Assembly: GCA_021823405.1 (NCBI GenBank)
Contig: JAKAOA010000004.1
Span: 1-53,914, forward strand
Direction of reading: 5' to 3'
From: Bacteroidota bacterium
Lineage (GTDB): Bacteria; Bacteroidota; Bacteroidia; JABEUT01
DNA: 53,914 nucleotides
Under the pieces are notes generated by a model that was not told the origin of the DNA, searched no databases, and saw nothing but the letters and a program-made list of their open reading frames with translations. Made by a program: the position numbers and the translations under genes. Positions 8,125-20,310 of this stretch are shown here, piece by piece (the first letter of the stretch is position 1; the number at the start of each line of letters is the position of its first letter).

Positions 8125-8478
8125 ATGAAATGGGAAAAAGACATTGTAGAATATTTAAAGCCTACTCTAAAAAGTAATGCTCCGATAAGCATTGAATCAT
8201 TCCCGTTATATAAATCCAATCCAGATGCAACCATTAAACAATTTCAAAATCTTCACCGAAGAAACTGGATTATTTATAACGATAATGATAAAACCGCCAT
8301 ATTAGACCCAGGAGGGGAGTCAGAAATCGAGAAATTAAAAAAAGGACGAACATCAAATGTTCTTTCAATAATAGCCCTTATAATAGCAACTGGTTCTTTT
8401 ATTATTGCCCTACTTCAATATATGGGAAATAGCAGAAATGCAGAAGGCAATAAGCAATACACAAAATGCAATAAGTAA
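8125..8478 (+). CDS. Small membrane-anchored protein of unknown function
   Basis: 117 residues from the ATG at 8125 (a TTG at 8116 is less likely). The first 70 residues look like a compact helical/winged-helix-type domain (KWEKDIVEYLKPTLK, then FQNLHRRNWIIYND); a single helix (VLSIIALIIATGSFIIALLQ) follows near residues 78-99. The last codons (GNKQYTKCNK) arise from a low-complexity CAATAAGCAATA-type tract, so the C-terminus may be extended by repeat sequence. I do not recognise the family. TATGTATTATGT upstream at 8044-8055 resembles the leader elements at 1033 and 41910. Confidence 0.6.
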   Translation: MKWEKDIVEYLKPTLKSNAPISIESFPLYKSNPDATIKQFQNLHRRNWIIYNDNDKTAILDPGGESEIEKLKKGRTSNVLSIIALIIATGSFIIALLQYMGNSRNAEGNKQYTKCNK

Positions 8479-8559
8479 CTGGTCAAAATCCGAATACGGA
8501 ATTTTATGTTAAATATTGAGCCGAGCGGAAATGCAGTCCGATTAACGAAGATTGACCCA

Positions 8560-9501
8560 TTACCTGAATATAGCAATGTGTTTTTGCCCTGTGGCATCCA
8601 TCCATCCCCTGAACATGGAAGATGTATTAAAAGGCGTTACAATTGTTCCGTGGTTATCGACTGCAATAAGCCCGCCTTCTCCACCAAGTTGGGCGACTTT
8701 TTTTATAACTTCTGTAGTTGCTTGAACAAGTGAATACCCTTTATATTCGATAAGAGCAGATACATCGTACGCAGAAACATTTCGTATAAAATATTCTCCT
8801 TCGCCGGTACAGGAAACCGCACATGTTTTATTGTTTGCATAAGTGCCTGCACCAATTATAGGTGAATCTCCAATACGTCCGAATTTTTTATTGTTAATAC
8901 CGCCCGTTGAGGTTGCTGCTGCAAGGTTTCCGGCGGAATCAAGCGCTACTGCTCCTACCGTACCAAATTTTTTCCCTTTTATGTCAGAAGGCAGAGCAAT
9001 TTCGTCGCCAGCCCATGAACTGTCTTTGTCTTTGGTCAAAAGCCATTGTTTATGACGCTGTTCATCGTAAAAATAGGAAGTATCAACGATATCAAGTCCC
9101 TGTTCTCCCGCAAATTTCTCCGCACCGGCAGAAGCAAGAAGGATATGCGGGGAGTTATTCATAACTGCTTTTGCTGCAGAAATTGGATTTCGTATTATAT
9201 GGACTTCGGCAACTGCTCCTGCCTTTAAATTCATGCCATTCATTATTGCAGCATCCATCTCATTGATTCCATCCGAGTTAAAGACAGAACCTTTTCCAGC
9301 GTTGAATAATGGACAATCCTCCATGAGCCGCACCGCTGTTTCTACTGCATCTATAGCAGTCCCCCCATGGCTCAATACATGATATCCCGACAAAAGCGAC
9401 TCCGATAATGCGTCATGGTATGCTTTTTCAATTTCAGCAGGTATAGTTCCACTCATAAGAGTACCAGCTCCACCATGAATTGCAATCGCTATATTTCCCA
9501 T
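8560..9501 (-). CDS. Isoaspartyl peptidase / plant-type L-asparaginase (Ntn hydrolase)
   Basis: 313 residues beginning with the family start IAIHGGAGTL. The nucleophile threonine, exposed by autoproteolysis, is Thr181 in KKFGTVGAVALD. Downstream are TSTGGINNKKFGRIGDSPIIGAGTYA and CTGEGEYFIR, which form the substrate pocket. It cleaves isoaspartyl dipeptides and asparagine in the cytoplasm, recycling damaged peptides. The length and lack of a signal peptide fit the E. coli IaaA type. The methyltransferase gene at 9672 is divergent. Confidence 0.93.
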   Translation of the reverse strand: MGNIAIAIHGGAGTLMSGTIPAEIEKAYHDALSESLLSGYHVLSHGGTAIDAVETAVRLMEDCPLFNAGKGSVFNSDGINEMDAAIMNGMNLKAGAVAEVHIIRNPISAAKAVMNNSPHILLASAGAEKFAGEQGLDIVDTSYFYDEQRHKQWLLTKDKDSSWAGDEIALPSDIKGKKFGTVGAVALDSAGNLAAATSTGGINNKKFGRIGDSPIIGAGTYANNKTCAVSCTGEGEYFIRNVSAYDVSALIEYKGYSLVQATTEVIKKVAQLGGEGGLIAVDNHGTIVTPFNTSSMFRGWMDATGQKHIAIFR

Positions 9502-9583
9502 TATAATTTAAAATACGATTTTTACGAACTTTGTTAATTAGGATTACAAAAAAAAGTATAATTTTTTTAATGATAAAATTTGC

Positions 9584-9591
9584 CAAAAGTA
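9584..9591 (-). promoter_or_regulatory. Candidate -7 element for the isoaspartyl peptidase gene
   Basis: On the minus strand TACTTTTG matches TAnnTTTG, about 80 bases before the start codon in the AT-rich divergent spacer. No clear -33 element is visible. Confidence 0.3.
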
Positions 9592-9671
9592 GAAAATTTA
9601 TTAGTTGCTTTGTTGTCAGAAAAGCGAAAATGAGTTAAACATCCATCGTCGTTAATTGATAGATTGTAAAA

Positions 9672-10475
9672 ATGCAGCCATTATTTCTAATAAACGAGTA
9701 TATACTTTACCTACTAAAGGCGAAGAACGGCGGACATGGTGTTCACTCGGATTTTGTTTTTAAAATTTATGAAAGAGTAATTCGCGAGAACAAGAACTAC
9801 TATGAGTTTCAACCCATTGAACTATTGCGCCTTTCAATGTTAAATTCCGATAATACCATTGAAGTGATTGATTATGGAGCCAAGGGAGGAAATAAAAAAT
9901 TGAATCATGAGAATATAATAAGACGAAAAATAAAGGATATCGCCCGACTCTCATCTGTGACACCTAAGAAAGGTAGACTACTATTCCGACTGGTTAATTT
10001 TATACAACCCAAAGTTATGGTAGAACTTGGCACCTCGCTTGGAATAAGTACTCTATACCAAAGAAAGGCGTGTCCTGAAGCATTATTTTATACTCTGGAA
10101 GGCAGTCCCAGGACGTCGGAAACGGCGGCTGAAAACTTCAACAAGATGAAGGCATCCGGTATCATTCAGATTGTTGGAAACTTTGAGCATACTTTGACGG
10201 AGTTAATTGAGTTGAATCACTCGGTCGATTATGTCTTTTTTGATGGGAATCATCGACTTGAAGCTACTATTGATTATTTTCGGCGATTAATGACTATAGC
10301 ATCAGAAAATACGGTATTCGTTTTCGATGATATACGCTGGAGCCCCGAAATGTATGACGCTTGGAAGATTATTATAAATGAGAACAAAGCTACAGTTACA
10401 GTTGATTTATTTTCAATTGGACTGGTTTTTTTCAGGAAGTTTCAGGAAAAGGAACATTTTGTTCTTCGATTTTGA
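9672..10475 (+). CDS. Class I SAM-dependent methyltransferase (Methyltransf_24-like)
   Basis: 267 residues. Motif I is VELGTSLGISTLY at about 117-129, followed by the acidic residue of motif II in LEGSPRT (Glu143). VDYVFFDGNH (185-194) and VFDDIRW (217-223) are typical of the O-methyltransferase-like Methyltransf_24 group with its metal-binding acidic pair. The N-terminal 100 residues (GGHGVHSDFVFKIYERVI) belong to a Bacteroidota subfamily of this type. The acceptor is unknown. It converges on the dedA gene with only 12 bases between the stop codons. Confidence 0.85.
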   Translation: MQPLFLINEYILYLLKAKNGGHGVHSDFVFKIYERVIRENKNYYEFQPIELLRLSMLNSDNTIEVIDYGAKGGNKKLNHENIIRRKIKDIARLSSVTPKKGRLLFRLVNFIQPKVMVELGTSLGISTLYQRKACPEALFYTLEGSPRTSETAAENFNKMKASGIIQIVGNFEHTLTELIELNHSVDYVFFDGNHRLEATIDYFRRLMTIASENTVFVFDDIRWSPEMYDAWKIIINENKATVTVDLFSIGLVFFRKFQEKEHFVLRF

Positions 10476-10481
10476 TAGTGA

Positions 10482-10516
10482 GCCCCCCTACTCTAACTCT
10501 AAACTTGGAGAGGGCT
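10482..10516. repeat. Degenerate dispersed palindrome at the convergent gene ends
   Basis: AGCCCCCCTACTC and GGAGAGGGCT form an imperfect hairpin related to the 64-bp repeat at 829-1018. It encodes the last residues of the DedA protein (KPSPSLELE), so the repeat has been absorbed into that gene's 3' end. It could act as a two-way terminator. Confidence 0.5.
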
Positions 10517-11144
10517 TTGTGGTACCTATATCGGTCTTGCCTGACTTGTTCCGTAACACATAAATGCCTGAAAACGTAATAATAGCGGCTACAAGTAGCA
10601 GAAGAACGATATTCTGAACAATTCCCAGATTATCAATTGCGATATTCCAATAGGGAGCAATAAGCCAACCAAAGGTGACTAATCCGCCGCTCCAGGTAAG
10701 AGCAGAAAATGTAACGATTGTTACAAATTTTCGTGGGGTAAACCTTACTATTCCTGCCGCTACTGATACATAACCGCGCAGAAAGGGAGTGAGCCGCCCA
10801 AGAAAAATTCCTAAATACCCACGCCTTTCAACAAGGCGTTTTAACCGAAAAATTGCACCGGATTTAAGCGGAAGCCACTTGGGTTTATGGTTAAAAAGCC
10901 AATTTCCAAAAAAGTAAAACGAGAAAAAAAGGAGGCATGTACCGCTGACATCTGCTATAATAACTGTAATAACAACCCTTATTAGCGAAAGAGAATGGAA
11001 ATATGATAAATATCCCCCGAACATTAATACAAGTTCATTGGTTACTGGATTCGGGACGCCTATTTCTTGTAGGAATACGAGTATAAAAATGGCAATATAA
11101 CCATAGTGTGATACAAATTGGGCAACTTCGTTCAGTTTATCCAT
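10488..11144 (-). CDS. DedA/VTT-family membrane protein
   Basis: 218 residues. The N-terminal half-helix region reads FLQEIGVPNPVTNELVLMFGGYL, and the later part contains the conserved FLGRLTPFLRGYVSVAAGI, where the arginines and the phenylalanine-rich re-entrant loop are the DedA signature. Four to five membrane segments follow. Proteins of this family work as lipid scramblases or in undecaprenyl-phosphate recycling. The C-terminal tail is derived from a dispersed palindrome. The glycosyltransferase gene lies 50 bases upstream on the same strand, which fits an envelope-related pair. Confidence 0.85.
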   Translation of the reverse strand: MDKLNEVAQFVSHYGYIAIFILVFLQEIGVPNPVTNELVLMFGGYLSYFHSLSLIRVVITVIIADVSGTCLLFFSFYFFGNWLFNHKPKWLPLKSGAIFRLKRLVERRGYLGIFLGRLTPFLRGYVSVAAGIVRFTPRKFVTIVTFSALTWSGGLVTFGWLIAPYWNIAIDNLGIVQNIVLLLLVAAIITFSGIYVLRNKSGKTDIGTTKPSPSLELE

Positions 11145-11194
11145 TTAAATATTCTGCGGTTTTGCATTAATAAGAATCAGATGAAACTTTTGTG

Positions 11195-12367
11195 CTATAA
11201 ATTCTTTATCTTTAATCTTTCTTTATCAGACCTATGTTTTGGGTATAACTGCTTTACATTGTCTCCTTTATTGATCAAGCTGTAAAGATTTCTTATCATA
11301 TATTCACTCGACTTCATTACCCACTCCGAATATGAAGAGTTTTCTCCATCAAAATTTTCGATATAATTGAGGAACCTGCTCATATCGAATTTCTTACCAT
11401 ATAGTCCAAGGTTCGTTCTGATTGCGTCCTGTGAATTGCAGAATTGTTCATAATGACCTTCTACTGGCACCATAAATACCGGTTTGCCCATGTACATTGC
11501 CTCGTTAACGGACTCGAAACCGGATGTAGTGACTACGCCCTTCGCGTTAGCCATCAGAGATAAGAATTTTTTATCATTCAAACGGTGAAAGGTCAAAGTA
11601 TTGTCGAACTGTTCCGACTCATTTAAGTCCTTCTTGTCCGTAAAGCAATGTAATTCCGTTTCGGGATGTCGCTTATGCCATTCGATAATGTCTTCCATAT
11701 AACCGCTGTTGAGCAAATAAATGAGCAGATAATTTTCCTTCCCAGTATGGTAGTTCAACACTTCCTTGCGCAGGAGAGGCGGCACCACATAAATTGCTTT
11801 GCGGGTATCGTCGTTGAAAGGATAAAATGATAAAGCCAGGCGTTTGGTTGAACCGATTGATGTAAGCCAAATATAAAATTTAAGACTTGCCCGTGAAATG
11901 AGATGTCCTTTCGGCATTTTAAAATCTGAATGGAGGAACATATAATGGTGAGCCACAGAAACTATTGGTATCTTCGGGTTAAAAGCCATAAAGTAAAAGC
12001 CGCAAAGAGGTTCAAAAAAATTGATTATAATATCAGGTTTATGCTCTTTGACTTTTTGGTGAATTATACTTAAACTCCTAAAATACTTGGGCAACATGTA
12101 AGTGCTCTTAATTGAGGTCGCTAGTGGTTTAACTTTTTTATTTTTTCTATCCAAAGCCATGTTCGGGCTGTGAACACTTGTAACTGGTACGTTCATTCTT
12201 TCAGCATAAAATGAAGGGATGTCACGGTGACCGCTTTTTCCTATAATCACTTCGCACACCTTCATGCCCACATCTTCCAGAACTTGCTTCATGGAGATGG
12301 ATTGGGTCATGTGCCCGCGTCCTTCACCTTGCACAAGGAAAAGGCACTTTTTATTTTGCAAGTCCAT
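11195..12367 (-). CDS. GT-B glycosyltransferase of the MurG-like/MJ1255 type
   Basis: 390 residues. The glycine-rich N-terminal loop LVQGEGRGHMTQS (11-23) and the donor-site segment TTSGFESVNEAMYMGKPVFMVP (280-301) followed by a glutamate and EQ pair (GHYEQF) match the GT28/MJ1255-type glycosyltransferases that use nucleotide sugars. There is no signal peptide or membrane helix; it probably works at the inner face of the inner membrane. The product is unknown. It lies upstream of and co-directional with dedA. Confidence 0.8.
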   Translation of the reverse strand: MDLQNKKCLFLVQGEGRGHMTQSISMKQVLEDVGMKVCEVIIGKSGHRDIPSFYAERMNVPVTSVHSPNMALDRKNKKVKPLATSIKSTYMLPKYFRSLSIIHQKVKEHKPDIIINFFEPLCGFYFMAFNPKIPIVSVAHHYMFLHSDFKMPKGHLISRASLKFYIWLTSIGSTKRLALSFYPFNDDTRKAIYVVPPLLRKEVLNYHTGKENYLLIYLLNSGYMEDIIEWHKRHPETELHCFTDKKDLNESEQFDNTLTFHRLNDKKFLSLMANAKGVVTTSGFESVNEAMYMGKPVFMVPVEGHYEQFCNSQDAIRTNLGLYGKKFDMSRFLNYIENFDGENSSYSEWVMKSSEYMIRNLYSLINKGDNVKQLYPKHRSDKERLKIKNL

Positions 12368-12625
12368 TATTTCGCTTCTATTTCAGGTTTACCGGAATAT
12401 TCTTTATCAATTAAGACGAACAAAGATAATAAAAGGTTCGGCGTGACCTATCCTAATTAACAAAAACGTAATAAATATTTCATAATGTATAGATGAAGGA
12501 TGGTTGGTATAATCTATAATTACCGTATGTTAGAAATTAATGCCATAGAGAGAAATAACAACACCCAATCTGTTCTATTATTAATAGCTTACAATTTCCT
12601 TTCCTGCTCCTTATTTTGCATTATA

Positions 12626-14122
12626 CTAGAGGTGATATGTGATTCCAGCAATAACTGAATAAAAGTATGGGTAGGTAATAACAGGGGTGTTCGAGTTTAT
12701 GGGCGTTATGGCTCCTTCTATTTCCGGTTCAGCTAATATTGAAAAACCTCTTCCTAAAGAATAATTTATGCCAACGCCAAACGAATACCCGAGTTGAATA
12801 GAATTTAATCCTTGCATGCCCTGTACATTTGATTCACCATCCTGCAGCATAGTATTTTGCCAATACATTTCAGTACTTTGATAAACAGCCAGATTTGCAG
12901 ATACCCCGCCAATAATGAACATTTTCATTTTCCGTTTCGAATATAAATCGTATGCCAATTGCAGCGGAATACATAGATACCCCCTTGCTGAACTACCTCT
13001 TATTTTTATACTGTCTCCAAGTCGTGGGGTATTCACGGGATATGGGCAATTCACTAATCCGGTACTCGTTTCAACAGAGTATCCGATTGTACCGTTTTCC
13101 TGTTGGGATGCGTATACCACAATTTGCTTAATATTATAAGTGAATAGATTATAATATGCTCCCGTATAAACAGTAAATTTAGGCGAAATATCCAATCCTA
13201 ATCTAAAACCTGTACTGCATGCGAAGGGGTCGCTTTCCATAGCACTTACATTCCTTGGGTTCCCTTTAATCTCCATCTCGGCGTTTCCGTCATTTAGATA
13301 ATCGTCTGCAATGGCGGGCGCAAAATATGCAGAAATTGATAACTTATGTATGAGTTGAATTTTATGTCCCGGCTCCTTGGAAATGGGAGCTATTGTAGTT
13401 GAATCTGTTAAACTTCTTTTGGAATAAACTTTAATCGACGATTCCGAATTTGTCATTTTATTTAGCGGAGTTGTATCGTTTATAACAAGAGCCGACACAG
13501 TATCACTTAGATTCCTGTTGTCCCGGACGACATTTTTCACAGTACTGTTAAGTTGAGAGGTTTTATAGTCGTTTGCATTTAAATTAGCAAGAGTATTATT
13601 TAACTGGTCATTGTTACCGTTATTTCCCGATAATAGAATAAATGGTTTGAAAGAAGACATCGTATTTTTTTGCATGATTTTGTATGTTGTCCCGGGTGTG
13701 CTTATGGCAGTAGTTTCTTCAATAAGCTTATTTATTCCAACGGAATGCGAGATTTTACTACTTTTAATCATACCATTGTTTGCGGGATAATGGATACTAT
13801 TTTGAGATTGCGGTGAGGTGACTTCATTTTGACGTTGCTGTTTACTCTGGAGTATATTAAGTTCCGCCAGTCCATTTTCCAAATTCCGAATTTTTGAATC
13901 AGAAATGTATTGATGTAAAATTGAAAATGCAAGGATTACACCTAAAAAAACTGCGACAGACCTCCAGAGAATCACTTGCCGCCTGTTAATGCTCCTTTCC
14001 TTATCAATTATGTTATTCAGTGCGGAATTCCAGAATTTTCCGGAAGGTTCAATTTCAAAAGAATTGAACGCAGCGCCAAATATTTCCTTTTCAGGGTCGG
14101 TATCAGGAAAATTTTCTTTCAC
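12626..14122 (-). CDS. Sigma-factor partner: single inner-membrane helix plus C-terminal outer-membrane-barrel-like domain
   Basis: About 498-505 residues. No ATG start is possible: TTG at 14143 (41-base overlap with the sigma gene) or GTG at 14122 (20-base overlap); a stop precedes the TTG. The N-terminal 55 residues are hydrophilic and cytoplasmic-like, ending in a basic NRRQ. One helix follows (VILWRSVAVFLGVILAFSIL), then a short coiled coil, a low-complexity Ser/Thr/Asn-rich linker of about 180 residues, and from about residue 283 a domain of alternating strands ending in YPYFYSVIAGITYHL, like small outer-membrane beta-barrels. By position it should be the anti-sigma factor for the gene upstream, but no classic zinc anti-sigma motif is seen. 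Its function is inference; the topology is directly readable. Confidence 0.75.
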   Translation of the reverse strand: MKENFPDTDPEKEIFGAAFNSFEIEPSGKFWNSALNNIIDKERSINRRQVILWRSVAVFLGVILAFSILHQYISDSKIRNLENGLAELNILQSKQQRQNEVTSPQSQNSIHYPANNGMIKSSKISHSVGINKLIEETTAISTPGTTYKIMQKNTMSSFKPFILLSGNNGNNDQLNNTLANLNANDYKTSQLNSTVKNVVRDNRNLSDTVSALVINDTTPLNKMTNSESSIKVYSKRSLTDSTTIAPISKEPGHKIQLIHKLSISAYFAPAIADDYLNDGNAEMEIKGNPRNVSAMESDPFACSTGFRLGLDISPKFTVYTGAYYNLFTYNIKQIVVYASQQENGTIGYSVETSTGLVNCPYPVNTPRLGDSIKIRGSSARGYLCIPLQLAYDLYSKRKMKMFIIGGVSANLAVYQSTEMYWQNTMLQDGESNVQGMQGLNSIQLGYSFGVGINYSLGRGFSILAEPEIEGAITPINSNTPVITYPYFYSVIAGITYHL

Positions 14123-14684
14123 GGGATTCGTTCTTTTGTGCAACTAACATGCTTTGATTTATTTTTCTCCGGAGAGTCAATCGGGCGTAATAAAGGGTTG
14201 ATTTGGAAGTTCCGACAGGTATGGTTAATTTTTCAGCTATTTCGTTATGGTCCATGTTTTCGAAAATATAAAGGTTGAAGACAATTCTGTGCATTGTTGG
14301 GAGTTCGTCTATAAATGCAAGCAGGTCTTTTACAGAAAGGGTAGCCAAAACGTCATCTGTAGATGGTAATTTTTCCGCAAGGTCTTCAATATCGGTGACC
14401 GGAAAAATACGCATTTCTTTTCTGCAACTTTCTATTGCCCTGCTCACCATAATGCGTCTTACCCATCCTTCAAAGGAGCCCTTATGGCTAAACTGCGATA
14501 TTTTGGTAAAAACAGTTAAAAATCCCTCTTGTAAAATATCCTCCGCATCTTCTATATTTTTTGCGTAACGGCGGCACACCCCAAGCATTTTTGCAGCATA
14601 ACGCCTGTATAGCAGACGCTGTGCTACCGGATCGCCCTGAAGACACCCATTAATTATTTCACTTTCTGAATATTCGGATGACAT
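14103..14684 (-). CDS. ECF-type RNA polymerase sigma factor
   Basis: 193 residues. Region 2 (about 17-90) shows LLYRRYAAKMLGVCRRYAK and AEDILQEGFLTVF for core and -10 recognition. Region 4 (about 121-178) shows LPTMHRIVFNLYIFENMDHNEIA and VGTSKSTLYYARLTLRRKI, a helix-turn-helix for the -35-like element. This is the usual sigma-70 ECF form of Bacteroidota. The downstream gene overlaps its 3' end, so the two are translationally coupled. A -7 element lies 35 bases upstream. Its regulon is unknown; the divergent neighbour encodes a T9SS cargo protein. Confidence 0.93.
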   Translation of the reverse strand: MSSEYSESEIINGCLQGDPVAQRLLYRRYAAKMLGVCRRYAKNIEDAEDILQEGFLTVFTKISQFSHKGSFEGWVRRIMVSRAIESCRKEMRIFPVTDIEDLAEKLPSTDDVLATLSVKDLLAFIDELPTMHRIVFNLYIFENMDHNEIAEKLTIPVGTSKSTLYYARLTLRRKINQSMLVAQKNESRERKFS

Positions 14685-14999
14685 TATATATGTAGACGTA
14701 TTTTTTAACTCAACGGTTCAAAGCTACCTAATAAAATGTTTTCCCTGATAAAGTTTGAAATAGGTTTAGCAATAACTTGAATAACTTACGGCTAATTTTA
14801 CAAACTAATAAACTATTGTTAAAAAAGAGCGATTTTTATATGGTTAATTCTATTTTGTTGTATATTAGCACTTTAGTTTGTACGCGTTGCATTTGCAGAA
14901 TACGGTTAATACCTGTAATACTTACAAAAAACGCTCTGTAAAATAGAATTCAGAGTAAAAAATATAACTCATCTATTCTCATAAACTTAGCGGTTGAAA
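14685..14999. other. Divergent regulatory spacer between sigma gene and NIDO protein gene
   Basis: An AT-rich spacer of 315 bases between divergent starts. It holds the sigma-gene promoter and about 150 bases of leader before the adhesin-like gene. I see no small gene or RNA in it. This is where self-regulation by the sigma factor would act. Confidence 0.5.
14719..14726 (-). promoter_or_regulatory. Candidate -7 element of the sigma-factor gene
   Basis: On the minus strand TAGCTTTG matches TAnnTTTG and lies 35 bases before the ATG. The -33 position is not convincing. Confidence 0.4.
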
Positions 15000-17528
15000 A
15001 TGCGAAAAATTATCCTTTACTTGGTAATCTTTTTCTGTACCGTGGGTTGGAATCGTGCTAGCGCACAGAACATTTGCAGTTGCTGGCAAAACGTAGATAC
15101 CAATAACGGCTGGCATGTTGTACCCTTTGCGTGGGACAGCGACGGTAATTATGCCCCATCTCCTCCACTCTATCAAAATGACGATGGCGTTACAAATGCA
15201 ATCCACCTGCCGTTCAATTTCTGCTATTTCGGGCAAAGTTTTGATTCGGTGTTCATAAATAATAACGGTAATATCTCGTTTCTTCAACCCTATTCAAGCT
15301 TTAACCCTGCCGGATTCCCCCTTGTCGGATGGTTGATGATAGCCCCCTTCTGGGCTGATGTGGATACGCGTAATCCTGTTTCCGGAGTGGTCTATTACAA
15401 AATTACTCCTACCTATATGATTGTACAGTGGGATACAGTTGGATTTTTTAACATGAACGCCTATCGGCGGAACTCCTTTCAGGTAATAATCAGTAATGGA
15501 CACGATCCGATTATTCCCAATGGAAATAATGTTGAATTTTGCTACGATACAATGCAATGGACTACAGGCGATGCCTCCAACGGCGATTCGGGTTTCGATG
15601 GCAACCCCGCCGATCCTGCCACGGTGGGTGCGAATGCCGGTAACGGTATAAACTATATCCAGTTCGGATTGTTCGGGGTTGGCGGCGCCAACTACCTGGG
15701 GCAGTATCCTCCATTACCTTACGATGGCGTTTCATGGCTTAATGGCAGAACCTTTGTTTTTAATGTATGCGGCAGCCCGCCGCCAATAGAATCGGGAGTT
15801 ACTGCCTGCGATACCTTCAAGATATGCATGGGCGATACAGTCGATATACCTCTAATGTTTCTTTCACCCAACCAGAATGATACAACCAGATCCGGCTTAA
15901 GTCCACCCGTTCTCTCGGGAGTAAGTATTATTAAAAATAATCCCGGAATTACAGATTCCCTCGAAATACAGATAGTGGGTAACGCTTTTAATGTCGGAAC
16001 TCACATTATACACCTATACGGTTATGTCTCCAATGTTAATCCGCATGACACTTCTTTTGTACAATTTGTTCTACAAGTGGATTCAGGCGCTACCGGGCAT
16101 ATAGTAGCCAGTGCCGATACCATCTGTACAGGATCGAGCGTAACTATCAAAGCCGTCTCCAACGCCAGCAGTTATTTGTGGAGCAATGGAAGCACCATCG
16201 ACAGCATTGTGGTTTCGCCTCTTGTAACCACAACTTACAGCGTGCAACTTTCAAAAGGAACCTGTCAATCTAACTTACAATTCACAGTAGTGGTTCTCGC
16301 AAGCGTGAGCGGCAGCTTTACTCCGGCGCCGAATCCGCAGTGCGCAGGACGCCTTGTGATTTTTACCAACAACACGGTTGGGGCTAATGCCTACAGATGG
16401 AATTTTGGCGATACCTTATCGGGACCCGCTGACAGCTCATCGCTTCAGAACCCTTCGCACACATTCGACTCCGCAGGTACATATACGGTAACTCTTATTG
16501 CAAGAAATACAGGGGGCGGTTGCAAGATAGATACTGCCGTTCAGGTGGTTACTATCGTTGCCAATCCTAAAGCTGCAATTACGGCAAGTAAAGATTCGAT
16601 TTGTATCGGAGACAGTTCCGTTTTAACAGCAAGCGGCGGCAGCGCCTATTTATGGGAACCCGGTATGCAAAATTCCCAGATTATATCAGTTATGCCTAAT
16701 TCGACCAGCACGTATACCGTAGTAGTAAGCAACGGGAATTGCTCCGACAGCGCGAGAATTACTGTTTTTGCAGAAAAAACGCCCGTGGTAAGCAACCCCG
16801 CCCCTGCCGAACTGTGCCCAGGCGGTAATGTGCAACTTGCGGTAAATGTGCTTTGGGGAACTAACTTTTTGTGGTCGCCAAATCTTGATTTGACTTCGGA
16901 TAGTGTTTCAAATCCGTTTGCCAATCCTCCTTCCACAACAACCTATTCCCTTACCGTTACAAACGGACCCTGCGTGGCTTACGGATATGCTACCGTAATT
17001 GTACTTCCGGGCGCTGCCGGGGTTGCCGGAAACGACACCACTATATTGAGCGGGGGTACGGCGAATCTTTTTGTTAATTCTCCCCAGGGAGGACAAAGGT
17101 ATAAATGGATACCATCCGGCGGTGTTGCCTGCGATACCTGCCCCAACACAACAGCTAACCCCAAAACCACACAGTTATATCTCGTAATTGTTACCGACAC
17201 CGACGGCTGTACAATCACTGACAGTGTGCTTGTTAAGGTTAAGGAAGAATGTCCTGAATTATTCGTGCCCACTGCTTTTTCTCCCACCAGCGGCGCATCT
17301 GCCAATCAATCGGAATGCGTTTTTGGCGGATGTATCCAAAGCTTATATTTTGCCATTTACGACCGTTGGGGCAATAAAGTTTTTGAAACCACCGACCAAA
17401 CAAAATGTTGGGATGGTACCTTCAACGGTACAGCTATGAACACAGGGGAGTTTGTTTACTATCTTAACGCAACTTTAACCAATGGTAAGAACGTTAATCA
17501 GAAAGGGAACATAACCTTAATTAGGTAA
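15000..17528 (+). CDS. NIDO-domain, PKD/Ig-like surface protein with type B T9SS sorting domain
   Basis: 842 residues from the ATG at 15000. A signal peptide ends near RASAQ. Residues about 68-255 form a nidogen-like (NIDO) domain (INNNGNISF, APFWADVDTR, YIQFGLFG). Ig-like/SprB-like repeats follow, each of the type SICIGDSSVLTASGG...YLW..., and one PKD domain (YRWNFGDTLSG...HTFDSAGTYTVTL) near 440-495. The last 92 residues (CPELFVPTAFSP, IYDRWGNKVFE, WDGTFNG, GEFVYYL) are the gliding-motility-associated/CHU_C tail, the type B T9SS signal. It should be exported to the surface and probably acts in adhesion. A paralogue follows directly. Confidence 0.9.
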   Translation: MRKIILYLVIFFCTVGWNRASAQNICSCWQNVDTNNGWHVVPFAWDSDGNYAPSPPLYQNDDGVTNAIHLPFNFCYFGQSFDSVFINNNGNISFLQPYSSFNPAGFPLVGWLMIAPFWADVDTRNPVSGVVYYKITPTYMIVQWDTVGFFNMNAYRRNSFQVIISNGHDPIIPNGNNVEFCYDTMQWTTGDASNGDSGFDGNPADPATVGANAGNGINYIQFGLFGVGGANYLGQYPPLPYDGVSWLNGRTFVFNVCGSPPPIESGVTACDTFKICMGDTVDIPLMFLSPNQNDTTRSGLSPPVLSGVSIIKNNPGITDSLEIQIVGNAFNVGTHIIHLYGYVSNVNPHDTSFVQFVLQVDSGATGHIVASADTICTGSSVTIKAVSNASSYLWSNGSTIDSIVVSPLVTTTYSVQLSKGTCQSNLQFTVVVLASVSGSFTPAPNPQCAGRLVIFTNNTVGANAYRWNFGDTLSGPADSSSLQNPSHTFDSAGTYTVTLIARNTGGGCKIDTAVQVVTIVANPKAAITASKDSICIGDSSVLTASGGSAYLWEPGMQNSQIISVMPNSTSTYTVVVSNGNCSDSARITVFAEKTPVVSNPAPAELCPGGNVQLAVNVLWGTNFLWSPNLDLTSDSVSNPFANPPSTTTYSLTVTNGPCVAYGYATVIVLPGAAGVAGNDTTILSGGTANLFVNSPQGGQRYKWIPSGGVACDTCPNTTANPKTTQLYLVIVTDTDGCTITDSVLVKVKEECPELFVPTAFSPTSGASANQSECVFGGCIQSLYFAIYDRWGNKVFETTDQTKCWDGTFNGTAMNTGEFVYYLNATLTNGKNVNQKGNITLIR

Positions 17529-17592
17529 TTGCTGTATCTAATCCAGCCGATAATATGATATTTGCCTCCTTTAAGAATAAAATGAAACTGAA

Positions 17593-20310
17593 ATGAGAAT
17601 ACAAAACCTGTTTATTTCTGCTCTGATAATTATAACCGTATCAAGGAGTTTAAAACTGAATGCACAGAATAACTGCAGTTGTTGGAAGACAGTGGATACA
17701 ACCAACGGCTGGCATGTAGTTCCTTTTGCATTGGACAGCGATGGCGATCTCGTCCCGTCTCCTCCTTTATATAGAAATGATGATGGAGTTTCAAATCCTA
17801 TAAAACTCCCGTTTAATTTTTGCTTTTGGGGTAAAACAATTGATACAGTATATATAAACAATAACGGTGATATTTCATTCGGTCAATCCTATTCGAGCTA
17901 TAATCCTGCCGGATTCCCTCTTGTTGGATGGGAGATGATTGCCCCGTTCTGGGCGGATGTGGACACACGCAACGCATCGTCGGGGGTGGTGTATTATAAA
18001 CTCACCTCGACTTATCTAATAGTGCAGTGGGATACAGTTGGCTATTATAGCGAACATGTTGATAAACTTAACTCATTTCAGGTAATAATCAGCAACGGTC
18101 ACGACCCCATTATTCCAAATGGTAACAATGTTGAGGTTTGTTATGGATCAATGCAGTGGACAACAGGGGACGCTTCGAATGGTGTAAACGGATTTGACGG
18201 CAGTCCCGCCGACCCTGCTACTGTTGGAGTAAATGCGGGTGACGGACATGATTATATACAATTCGGATTATTCGGTGTCCCGGGTAACAGCTATCTGGGA
18301 CAATACCCACCATTCCCTTACGACGGCGTCTCATGGCTCGACGGAAAATCCTTTATTTTCAATGTCTGTAATAATAATACGCCACCGATTGTATCCGGTA
18401 TTTCACCATGCGATACCCTAATAGTATGCATAGGGGATACGCTTGATGTGCCAGTGCTATTCCTATCTCCCAATCAGAACGATACATCCAAATCTGGGCT
18501 TACCCCTCCTGTGCTATCCGGAGTGAGTATCATACGAAACGTACCCGGCACGACCGATTCTGTACTTTTACAGATAGTCGGTAATGGGCTTAATTATGGG
18601 TTCCATAATATCAATCTCTATGGATATGTTTCTAATGTAAATCCGCATGACACATCGTTCGCCCAATTCGTGCTTGAGGTTATTCCACAACCAAAACCGG
18701 TGATTTCCGGTAATGATTCCGTTTGTATTGGAGGAAATACAATCCTTACCGGTAATGGTGGTTTTGTATCTTATACTTGGAGCAATGGTGCCACCACCTC
18801 ATCTATAAGTGTTAACCCAGTTACCCAAACAACCTATACGCTCACAGTTTCGAATGGTATTTGCCAGCATGATACAACTATTACAATATACATTAAGCCG
18901 AACCCGATACCAACCATTACCGCCAGACCTGACAGCATCTGCGCCGGCGACAGCTCCACACTCACCGCGAATGGCGGCGGAACCTATGCGTGGTCAAACC
19001 CGCCGGGCGGAAGCAGGCAGACCGTTAGAGTGGCGGCAGGTACATACACAGTTGCCGTAACAAAAAACGGCTGCACGCATGATACCACCATCACAGTTGT
19101 ACCTTTGTCAAATACACCGCCATCCATAGGACTTACGCTAAACAACCTCTGCCCGAACGACAGCACCGTTCTGCAAGCCGCCGGCGGAACAAAGTATAAA
19201 TGGATGCCCGGAGGCGACAGCACCGCAAACATTAAAGTTGACCCGGGTACATCAACCATTTATACCTGTACCATTACCACGCCTTGCAGGGTAATAGACA
19301 CCACTATTTCAGTAACCTACAAACCATGGCCCAATGTCGGTATCTCGGGAGATACGAGCATCTGTCTGGGTAATTCCACAACCATTACAGCATCCGGCGG
19401 CGGCACCTACAACTGGAACAACAACCAGTTCACCAGTTCCATCCTTGTGGCGCCTTTGAAAGACAGTGTATTTACCGTACAGGTAACGCTTAACGGTTGC
19501 AGTAAGGATACAAGCATACAGATAAACGTGCATACCGTTCCCCATGTAACCATCACGCCAAGCAATAAGGTATGTATCGGTGTTCCGTTCACACTGACCG
19601 CCAGCGGCGCCTGTGATTATAAGTGGAGCAACGGAGCCACCACAAGTTCCATAACAGTAACCCCCGGCAGCACCACAACCTTCTCCGTAGCAGCATGGTG
19701 TTATAATGACACTACAGGATGCGATACCGCTTTGAGTTCGCAGATAACGGTAGATGCAGCCAAACTGAATGCCTGCTGCGATACCACCATAGTAAGCGGC
19801 GACACGGCATCGCTGACGGGTAACGGGTCGAACAACTATATGTGGTCACCCAATTTCGGGTTAAGCTGCGATAACTGCCCCAATCCAATTGCAACGCCTA
19901 CGGTAACCACTACCTATACAGTAAGTTCAATAGACACATCCAACGGCTGTACGCATGATACGATAATAGTGGTAACGGTAAACCGTCCGTGCAACAATAT
20001 CTATGCGCCCAACGTGTTTACACCCAATAACGACGGTATAAACGATGACTTTGTGGTATCGGTTGATACCTTATCTCCGAGCGGTGAACGTTCCTCGTGG
20101 AGTAATTTTACCTTCTATTCCATAGCGATATTCGACCGGTGGGGCAAGGAAGTATATACCTCCACCGACCCTGCACAGCCATGGAACGGTAGAATCTCAA
20201 ATACACAGGATCTTGTGCCTGACGGGGTTTACTATTATATCATTAAGACCACCTGCGGGGCAAATAACAACGAGAAAAAGGGATTTGTGGAAGTGCTGGG
20301 TGAAAAATAA
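17593..20310 (+). CDS. Second NIDO-domain surface protein with type B T9SS sorting domain
   Basis: 905 residues with a signal peptide ending near LNAQ. The first 370 residues are highly similar to the preceding protein (shared CSCW start, NIDO domain, and HDTSF segment). After that the two diverge: this one carries about seven short Ig-like modules (PDSICAGDSSTLTANGGG, SICLGNSTTITASGGG, KVCIGVPFTLTASG) and a classical tail with FTPNNDGINDDF and AIFDRWGKEVY. No PKD domain is evident. Codon use becomes GC-richer from about 18890, unlike the first third. It is 64 bases behind its paralogue and ends at a strong terminator. Confidence 0.9.
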   Translation: MRIQNLFISALIIITVSRSLKLNAQNNCSCWKTVDTTNGWHVVPFALDSDGDLVPSPPLYRNDDGVSNPIKLPFNFCFWGKTIDTVYINNNGDISFGQSYSSYNPAGFPLVGWEMIAPFWADVDTRNASSGVVYYKLTSTYLIVQWDTVGYYSEHVDKLNSFQVIISNGHDPIIPNGNNVEVCYGSMQWTTGDASNGVNGFDGSPADPATVGVNAGDGHDYIQFGLFGVPGNSYLGQYPPFPYDGVSWLDGKSFIFNVCNNNTPPIVSGISPCDTLIVCIGDTLDVPVLFLSPNQNDTSKSGLTPPVLSGVSIIRNVPGTTDSVLLQIVGNGLNYGFHNINLYGYVSNVNPHDTSFAQFVLEVIPQPKPVISGNDSVCIGGNTILTGNGGFVSYTWSNGATTSSISVNPVTQTTYTLTVSNGICQHDTTITIYIKPNPIPTITARPDSICAGDSSTLTANGGGTYAWSNPPGGSRQTVRVAAGTYTVAVTKNGCTHDTTITVVPLSNTPPSIGLTLNNLCPNDSTVLQAAGGTKYKWMPGGDSTANIKVDPGTSTIYTCTITTPCRVIDTTISVTYKPWPNVGISGDTSICLGNSTTITASGGGTYNWNNNQFTSSILVAPLKDSVFTVQVTLNGCSKDTSIQINVHTVPHVTITPSNKVCIGVPFTLTASGACDYKWSNGATTSSITVTPGSTTTFSVAAWCYNDTTGCDTALSSQITVDAAKLNACCDTTIVSGDTASLTGNGSNNYMWSPNFGLSCDNCPNPIATPTVTTTYTVSSIDTSNGCTHDTIIVVTVNRPCNNIYAPNVFTPNNDGINDDFVVSVDTLSPSGERSSWSNFTFYSIAIFDRWGKEVYTSTDPAQPWNGRISNTQDLVPDGVYYYIIKTTCGANNNEKKGFVEVLGEK

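Follow-up and report, generated by a model that had tools for sequence, protein, structure and literature searches.

The question raised by this locus is whether a single polypeptide could span both membranes of the cell envelope and inform a cytoplasmic sigma factor of the state of the outer membrane. The locus lies in contig JAKAOA010000004.1 of a Bacteroidota bacterium, where an ECF sigma factor gene is followed by a partner gene whose product appears to join an inner-membrane helix to an outer-membrane barrel. The window, meaning the whole stretch of DNA analysed, covers 53,914 nucleotides; related loci are numbered with an L and contigs of the same genome with a C. The features of the pair are as follows.

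14103..14684, minus strand: ECF sigma factor gene (193 aa; Pfam Sigma70_r2 and Sigma70_r4_2, TIGR02937; aligned with 16 relatives)
12626..14122, minus strand: partner gene, probable Dma/Reo-type anti-sigma factor (498 aa from GTG; the reading frame opens at TTG 14143)
13979..14122, minus strand: cytoplasmic head, residues 1-48 (motif resembling D.LF...I...E.EPS..FW; putative sigma-binding part)
13919..13975, minus strand: predicted inner-membrane helix, residues 50-68 (hydropathy; within modelled helix 28-98)
13343..13828, minus strand: predicted disordered linker, residues 99-260 (pLDDT below 50 at 93-254)
12629..13342, minus strand: predicted eight-stranded outer-membrane barrel, residues 261-498 (AlphaFold2 model, Foldseek/VIA-align, PF13568; C-terminus ..GITYHL)

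Sigma factor and partner genes

An earlier note on this DNA had described an ECF sigma factor gene overlapped by a gene without an ATG start or classic anti-sigma motifs, and each of these points holds, the last of them as judged by Pfam and NCBIfam. The sigma factor matches Sigma70_r2 (1.5e-15) and Sigma70_r4_2 (9e-9) in Pfam, and its TIGR02937 score exceeds the NCBIfam cut-off. The open reading frame of the partner (12626-14143, minus strand) encodes 505 aa counted from TTG at 14143, or 498 aa from GTG at 14122, the latter start giving a 20 nt overlap with the sigma gene. Because the nearest relative (L018) has ATG at the residue aligned with this GTG, comparison of the two sequences makes GTG at 14122 the most likely start, rather than TTG at 14143, and the absence of ATG in the window partner would therefore be a local quirk. 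The partner has no FecR domain in Pfam or NCBIfam, no match of any kind in NCBIfam, and 0 matches by sequence in the PDB up to E 5. RsgI_N, the anti-sigma N-terminus of Pfam, was detected in 2 of 74 partners (best E 0.0007).

Predicted architecture of the partner

Hydropathy and AlphaFold2 together uphold the proposed order of parts, in which a cytoplasmic head and one membrane helix are followed by a disordered linker and a C-terminus resembling a barrel. By hydropathy there is a single membrane segment, at residues 50-68 (KD 2.29), and the 20 residues flanking it carry a net charge of +2 before the segment, on the head side, and -1 after it. The head residue W31 is invariant in 16 of 16 aligned partners. 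The AlphaFold2 model, built on 28 sequences (the window protein and 27 hand-chosen barrel relatives) and, like the other AlphaFold2 models used here, of a single chain only, places a helix at residues 10-20, then a long helix at 28-98 that encloses the membrane segment. Residues 93-254 have pLDDT below 50, and eight long strands follow at 261-497, mostly in blocks of pLDDT 83-98, with a long insert between strands three and four (residues 338-370).

The Pfam family PF13568 (OMP_b-brl_2) matches residues 295-463 (505-residue count) with 28.6 bits, barely above its cut-off of 27. The model was compared with the PDB by Foldseek, with VIA-align run on the top chains returned; the top row was a designed transmembrane barrel (Z 18.7), and high scores were also obtained against OprF (Z 18.3, 132 residues, 2.0 A), NspA (Z 16.8), OmpW (Z 16.4) and OmpA (Z 16.1). 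The structure prediction that had been suggested as a check on the C-terminal domain therefore returned a high-confidence barrel and not a non-barrel domain, and the partner C-terminus is confidently predicted, on the strength of this model, to be a transmembrane barrel. Of the 37 complete barrel partners, 31 have F, Y, W or L as C-terminal residue; among the 31 short partners, a class described below, the number is 5. A C-terminal signal of this kind is expected for insertion by BAM, and the C-terminal residues of the barrel partners fit such a route. Linkers in the 27 barrel relatives measure 119-238 residues, and that of the window partner 193. As modelled, the layout would be that of an inner-membrane helix, a disordered linker and an outer-membrane barrel, with both ends embedded at once.

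Distribution and conservation of the pair

Of 60 genomes searched with the window protein, 12, among them the one it comes from, contain relatives, and an ECF sigma gene precedes the partner on the same strand in 14 of 14 loci fetched from those genomes; the survey of sigma-barrel pairs in other Bacteroidota proposed earlier found the pair kept in all of these. Searching 395 genomes of the phylum with a profile of 16 partners gave matches in 124, many of them partial (head or barrel alone) and not individually checked. A sigma profile search yielded 80 named loci, in 79 of which a same-strand ORF directly follows the sigma gene; the eightieth (L078) ends at a contig edge, and 6 of the 79 following ORFs run off the contig. 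The 6 truncated partners and L078 were omitted from one alignment and from the Pfam count, for which 73 of 80 loci were used. Since it is kept in all 14 fetched loci and a same-strand ORF is found in 79 of the 80 named ones, the pairing of sigma factor and partner is more than chance.

Promoter motif and predicted regulon

The predicted promoters of the window and the genes associated with them are listed below.

14694..14719, minus strand: GAACC-N16-CGTCT, predicted promoter of the sigma gene itself (about 10 nt before ATG)
12414..12439, minus strand: GAACC-N16-CGTCT before the glycosyltransferase gene (about 47 nt before ATG; in 4 of 4 syntenic loci)
11195..12367, minus strand: glycosyltransferase family 1 gene, predicted regulon member (PF13528 6e-35)
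10488..11144, minus strand: gene of a DedA/VTT membrane protein, the next one 3' of the glycosyltransferase gene and likewise a predicted regulon member (PF09335 3e-12)

Of 15 homologous sigma genes, 11 are preceded by the pattern AAC[CG]-N14-19-C[AG]TC, with a spacing of 16 in 10 of these, and three others carry the motif with small departures, as seen by eye. The strict form of the pattern, AACC-N16-C[AG]TC, was found at 26 of 76 named sigma loci versus 0 of 76 for a reversed control (3 of 79 loci were skipped, their upstream sequence being too short). Apart from the site of the sigma gene, the only match to GAACC-N15-17-CGTC in the window lies 47 nt before the glycosyltransferase gene; 0.65 matches are expected in the window by chance, and the two matches alone prove little. 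All four syntenic loci (the window, L018, L019 and L020) have the motif 29-48 nt ahead of the glycosyltransferase gene; three of them were inspected only after the window site had been seen, and the four are orthologous DNA, hence not fully independent. Dinucleotide shuffles of the four upstream stretches gave 2, 1, 0 and 0 matches per 5000 each. The glycosyltransferase site is credible because it is kept in these four loci and nearly absent from the shuffles.

Genome-wide, GAACC-N15-17-CGTCT has 14 matches versus 8 for the reversed pattern, which is weak by count alone, and another motif count gave 28 versus 16 reversed; only position upstream of genes separates the two orientations. Four of the 14 matches precede a suitably oriented gene by at most 70 nt; the genes concerned are the sigma, glycosyltransferase, Rieske and DUF5686 genes. 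Independently of these matches, a Rieske gene is found immediately 3' of the anti-sigma gene in four relatives (L022, L024, L026 and L027), and in L018 the sequence GAACT-N15-CGTCT precedes a DUF5686 gene that diverges from the sigma gene. Judged from these sites, the sigma factor would drive its own operon together with the glycosyltransferase-DedA, Rieske and DUF5686 genes. None of these predicted regulon members is a carbohydrate-uptake gene. The motif and the short list of target genes are ready for testing.

The own genome contains three sigma-barrel pairs (contigs C143, C180 and C91) among 10 Sigma70_r2 matches. By eye, the promoters of the two further pairs (L028:6929-9053 on C180 and L051:3829-6071 on C91) depart in the -35 or -10 element, reading CAACT..CATCT and CAACC..CGTAC, and these differing letters suggest that the two pairs govern separate regulons. 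In L024, the sigma, anti-sigma and Rieske genes are followed on their 3' side (8290-11153, plus strand) by four genes sharing one direction, which encode a Por_Secre_tail T9SS type A protein, a 135-residue ORF with no Pfam match, a YceI protein and a DUF5777 barrel. The arrangement in L022 and L026 resembles this one.

Exchangeable tails

Partners of the sigma family differ in what follows the head and helix. The 74 classifiable partners comprise 38 with a barrel (one of which, L114, was called by hand from a Pfam match below cut-off), 31 short proteins without a barrel, and five with the T9SS type B sorting domain CHU_C (E 7e-11 to 7e-17). A head HMM built from the window partner and the 27 barrel relatives matches partners of all three architectures, including 50 of 52 outside the model at E of at most 1e-3 (E-values for a set of 79). 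In a sigma tree of 90 rows, 10 of them extra genome-search loci added by hand, the three tail labels require 8 changes versus 29.8 with shuffled labels, and the five CHU_C rows form one group (88% SH-aLRT).

The T9SS-tailed anti-sigma factors retain this head and helix, with CHU_C in place of the barrel, and several families within the class have them. The five partners of the named set are located at L088:5534-6655, L090:5521-6468, L097:5524-6387, L127:5522-6394 and L129:5521-6366, and 29 more are among L229-L258. The latter come from a CHU_C-type sigma profile run on 395 genomes of the class: of the best 30 loci, which were read, 29 encode a head, a helix and a sorting domain, and the thirtieth is cut by the contig end. 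A looser form of the promoter motif is present at 20 of 28 T9SS-tailed pairs, a count made without a control and omitting 2 of the 30 loci (L249, and L239, which nearly duplicates L238). In the model of one T9SS-tailed partner, confidence is confined to residues 200-290 (block pLDDT 83-92, against an overall mean of 50.8). Compared with the PDB, this model matches several streptococcal proteases and, with lower scores, T9SS proteins that include PorZ, PorU and one chain from the SprA translocon complex. No description of T9SS-tailed anti-sigma factors was found in the open-licence literature searched, going by titles and abstracts. In Flavobacterium psychrophilum, a CGT-box promoter class is reported to be linked to T9SS genes and to one sigma/anti-sigma pair (PMC9723704), making the T9SS-tailed class a good testing ground.

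Proposed mechanism and alternative explanations

The cytoplasmic head of the partner would hold the sigma factor at the inner membrane, and is the likely sigma-holding part because it is common to barrel, short and T9SS-tailed partners. A tether made up of the single helix and some 190 linker residues would connect this head to the barrel, which BAM would insert into the outer membrane, thereby anchoring the far end. If the barrel were uninserted or disturbed, the head would release the sigma factor, probably via loss or cleavage of the tether. The freed sigma factor would then transcribe its own operon and the glycosyltransferase-DedA genes, and elsewhere the Rieske and DUF5686 genes, in a response serving outer-membrane homeostasis. 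In this sentinel client form, an anti-sigma factor with an outer-membrane-protein C-terminus of its own would report the state of the assembly route that it uses.

The antibacterial toxins BcpT and Bd-A are both reported to induce ecfO-reo, the corresponding pair of Phocaeicola vulgatus (PMC13114119). We read Bd-A as bacteroidetocin A, which is reported to bind and inhibit BamA (PMC9308784). The sentinel client form is favoured because a BamA inhibitor appears to induce ecfO-reo, the C-terminus is of BAM type and T9SS-tailed sisters exist, though we put it at slightly under an even chance. The broader proposal is held a little more tentatively still: one anti-sigma head may carry different client tails (a barrel, a T9SS sorting domain or neither), each acting as sentinel of its route, with the sigma factor firing when that route fails. 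Outer-membrane barrel and T9SS sorting domain are alternative attachments to the same head, and if such tails are sentinels, one simple principle would account for the way in which these bacteria gauge both type IX secretion and the assembly of the outer membrane from within the cytoplasm. The T9SS-tailed form, which combines an inner-membrane anchor with a terminal secretion signal, would then be a new way of sensing type IX secretion.

Among the alternatives, a serious rival to the sentinel model would be ligand sensing by the barrel: the protein and its topology would be the same, with the barrel loops binding a glycan or other molecule and signalling via the tether, and assembly state would not be sensed. 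Such a role has been proposed for Dma2, which may sense glycan at the cell surface according to the discussion of its description (PMC13088901), and the insert modelled at residues 338-370 between strands three and four is compatible with it. However, the predicted regulon lacks carbohydrate-uptake genes, and the T9SS-tailed sisters keep the head and promoter yet have no barrel with which to bind a ligand, and we regard ligand sensing as the doubtful, if still appreciable, alternative.

It is improbable that early cleavage of the single chain leaves the barrel free in the outer membrane and the anti-sigma factor on its own in the inner membrane, with nothing spanning the two at steady state. 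The long disordered linker would be an easy target for proteases, but throughout Bacteroidota a single reading frame continues to encode head, helix and barrel, and the shortest linker among 27 relatives still has 119 residues, in keeping with the needs of a tether.

More improbable still is that the divergent T9SS adhesins at 14994-20310 are the regulon, as the earlier note had suggested. These neighbours (14994-17528 and 17593-20310, plus strand) lie in tandem and encode similar proteins, each with a NIDO domain (PF06119) and a T9SS type B sorting domain (PF13585), and another T9SS type B gene of the same genome (L211:701-2761, contig C174; 686 residues) has CAACC-N16-CGTCT 74 nt before its called start, the only one of its kind found behind a candidate site. 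The promoter search proposed for the divergent adhesins was nevertheless negative: neither gene has the motif in the 250 nt before it, a relaxed pattern included, whereas the sigma gene and the glycosyltransferase gene 3' of the pair both have a site. In the closest relative, L018, the place of the adhesins is taken by a DUF5686 gene. That an ordinary outer-membrane protein merely adjoins a sigma gene by chance has a negligible likelihood, since PF13568 proteins are common (9 matches in the own genome) but none of the 14 homologous loci fetched lacks the pair, and an uncleaved-looking helix lies behind a conserved 48-residue head.

Relationship to known systems

An unusual anti-sigma factor of P. 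vulgatus has been predicted to span the periplasm and to end in an outer-membrane barrel (Evans et al. 2022, PMC9308784), and was named Reo in a 2026 paper (PMC13114119). Pardue et al. (2026, PMC13088901) define Dma as a family of dual membrane-spanning anti-sigma factors of Bacteroides thetaiotaomicron, with an N-terminal sigma-binding part, one helix, a long disordered tether and a C-terminal barrel, encoded adjacent to a sigma gene. Further marks of the family are a cognate sigma factor of group ECF21, inhibition of that sigma factor, and induction of the operon on deletion of the anti-sigma gene. By computation, the window pair has the adjacent ECF sigma factor, the helix behind an N-terminal part, the disordered tether and the C-terminal barrel.

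NigD_N, which is tied to the Dma1 and Reo regulons, was used to find Dma-like loci and sought in 295 genomes of the class; it was present in 8, and seven stretches were read from four of these. NigD, a sigma factor and a head-helix-barrel protein are encoded side by side in L222, L226 and L228, two more sigma and barrel pairs occur in L223 and L227, and in L225 the sigma gene is followed by that of a barrel protein without a detected head; the label Dma1/Reo-like is given to these loci on the basis of NigD and layout. In L224 (5763-7406, minus strand), a 547-residue protein consists of an ECF sigma factor fused to a C-terminal outer-membrane barrel, like the published Dma3. The window genome itself has no NigD_N match. 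With hhalign, the barrel profile of the window family matched five Dma-like proteins (99.8%, E 1.2e-30) in an alignment of the barrels only. The sigma profile gave values of 1e-39 to 1e-53 with the Dma-like sigma factors, and 3e-33 with the sigma half of the L224 fusion. The head HMM gave E 2.6e-7, 2.2e-5 and 5.6e-4 for three of the five proteins and was weak for the other two (0.02 and 0.066). The promoter AACC-N16-C[AG]TC was not seen at the Bacteroidaceae-like Dma-like loci; the regulon would therefore not be common to them, nor the motif a family-wide feature of Dma.

Signalling of the TonB-dependent transducer or FecR type likewise has an outer-membrane barrel inform an inner-membrane anti-sigma factor, and relies on two proteins and a signalling-domain contact. 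In contrast, the window system is a single chain with a small eight-stranded barrel. Dma1/Das1, Dma2/Das2 and Dma3 share with the window pair the succession of N-terminal part, helix, disordered tether and barrel, and the neighbouring sigma factor (PMC13088901), whereas the window pair belongs to another lineage and has its own motif and a predicted regulon of glycosyltransferase-DedA, Rieske and DUF5686 genes. Reo, the anti-sigma factor of EcfO (P. vulgatus M0N98_03760), is similarly large, predicted to span the periplasm, equipped with a C-terminal barrel and encoded 3' of its sigma gene; going by its published description, it differs in a regulon with NigD genes and an LPS glycosyltransferase gene (PMC9308784). 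The window partner is thus very probably an anti-sigma factor of the Dma/Reo type. The two-membrane anti-sigma design is already published; the window locus adds a member, with a newly predicted promoter and regulon, and would extend the design from gut Bacteroides to another lineage of Bacteroidota.
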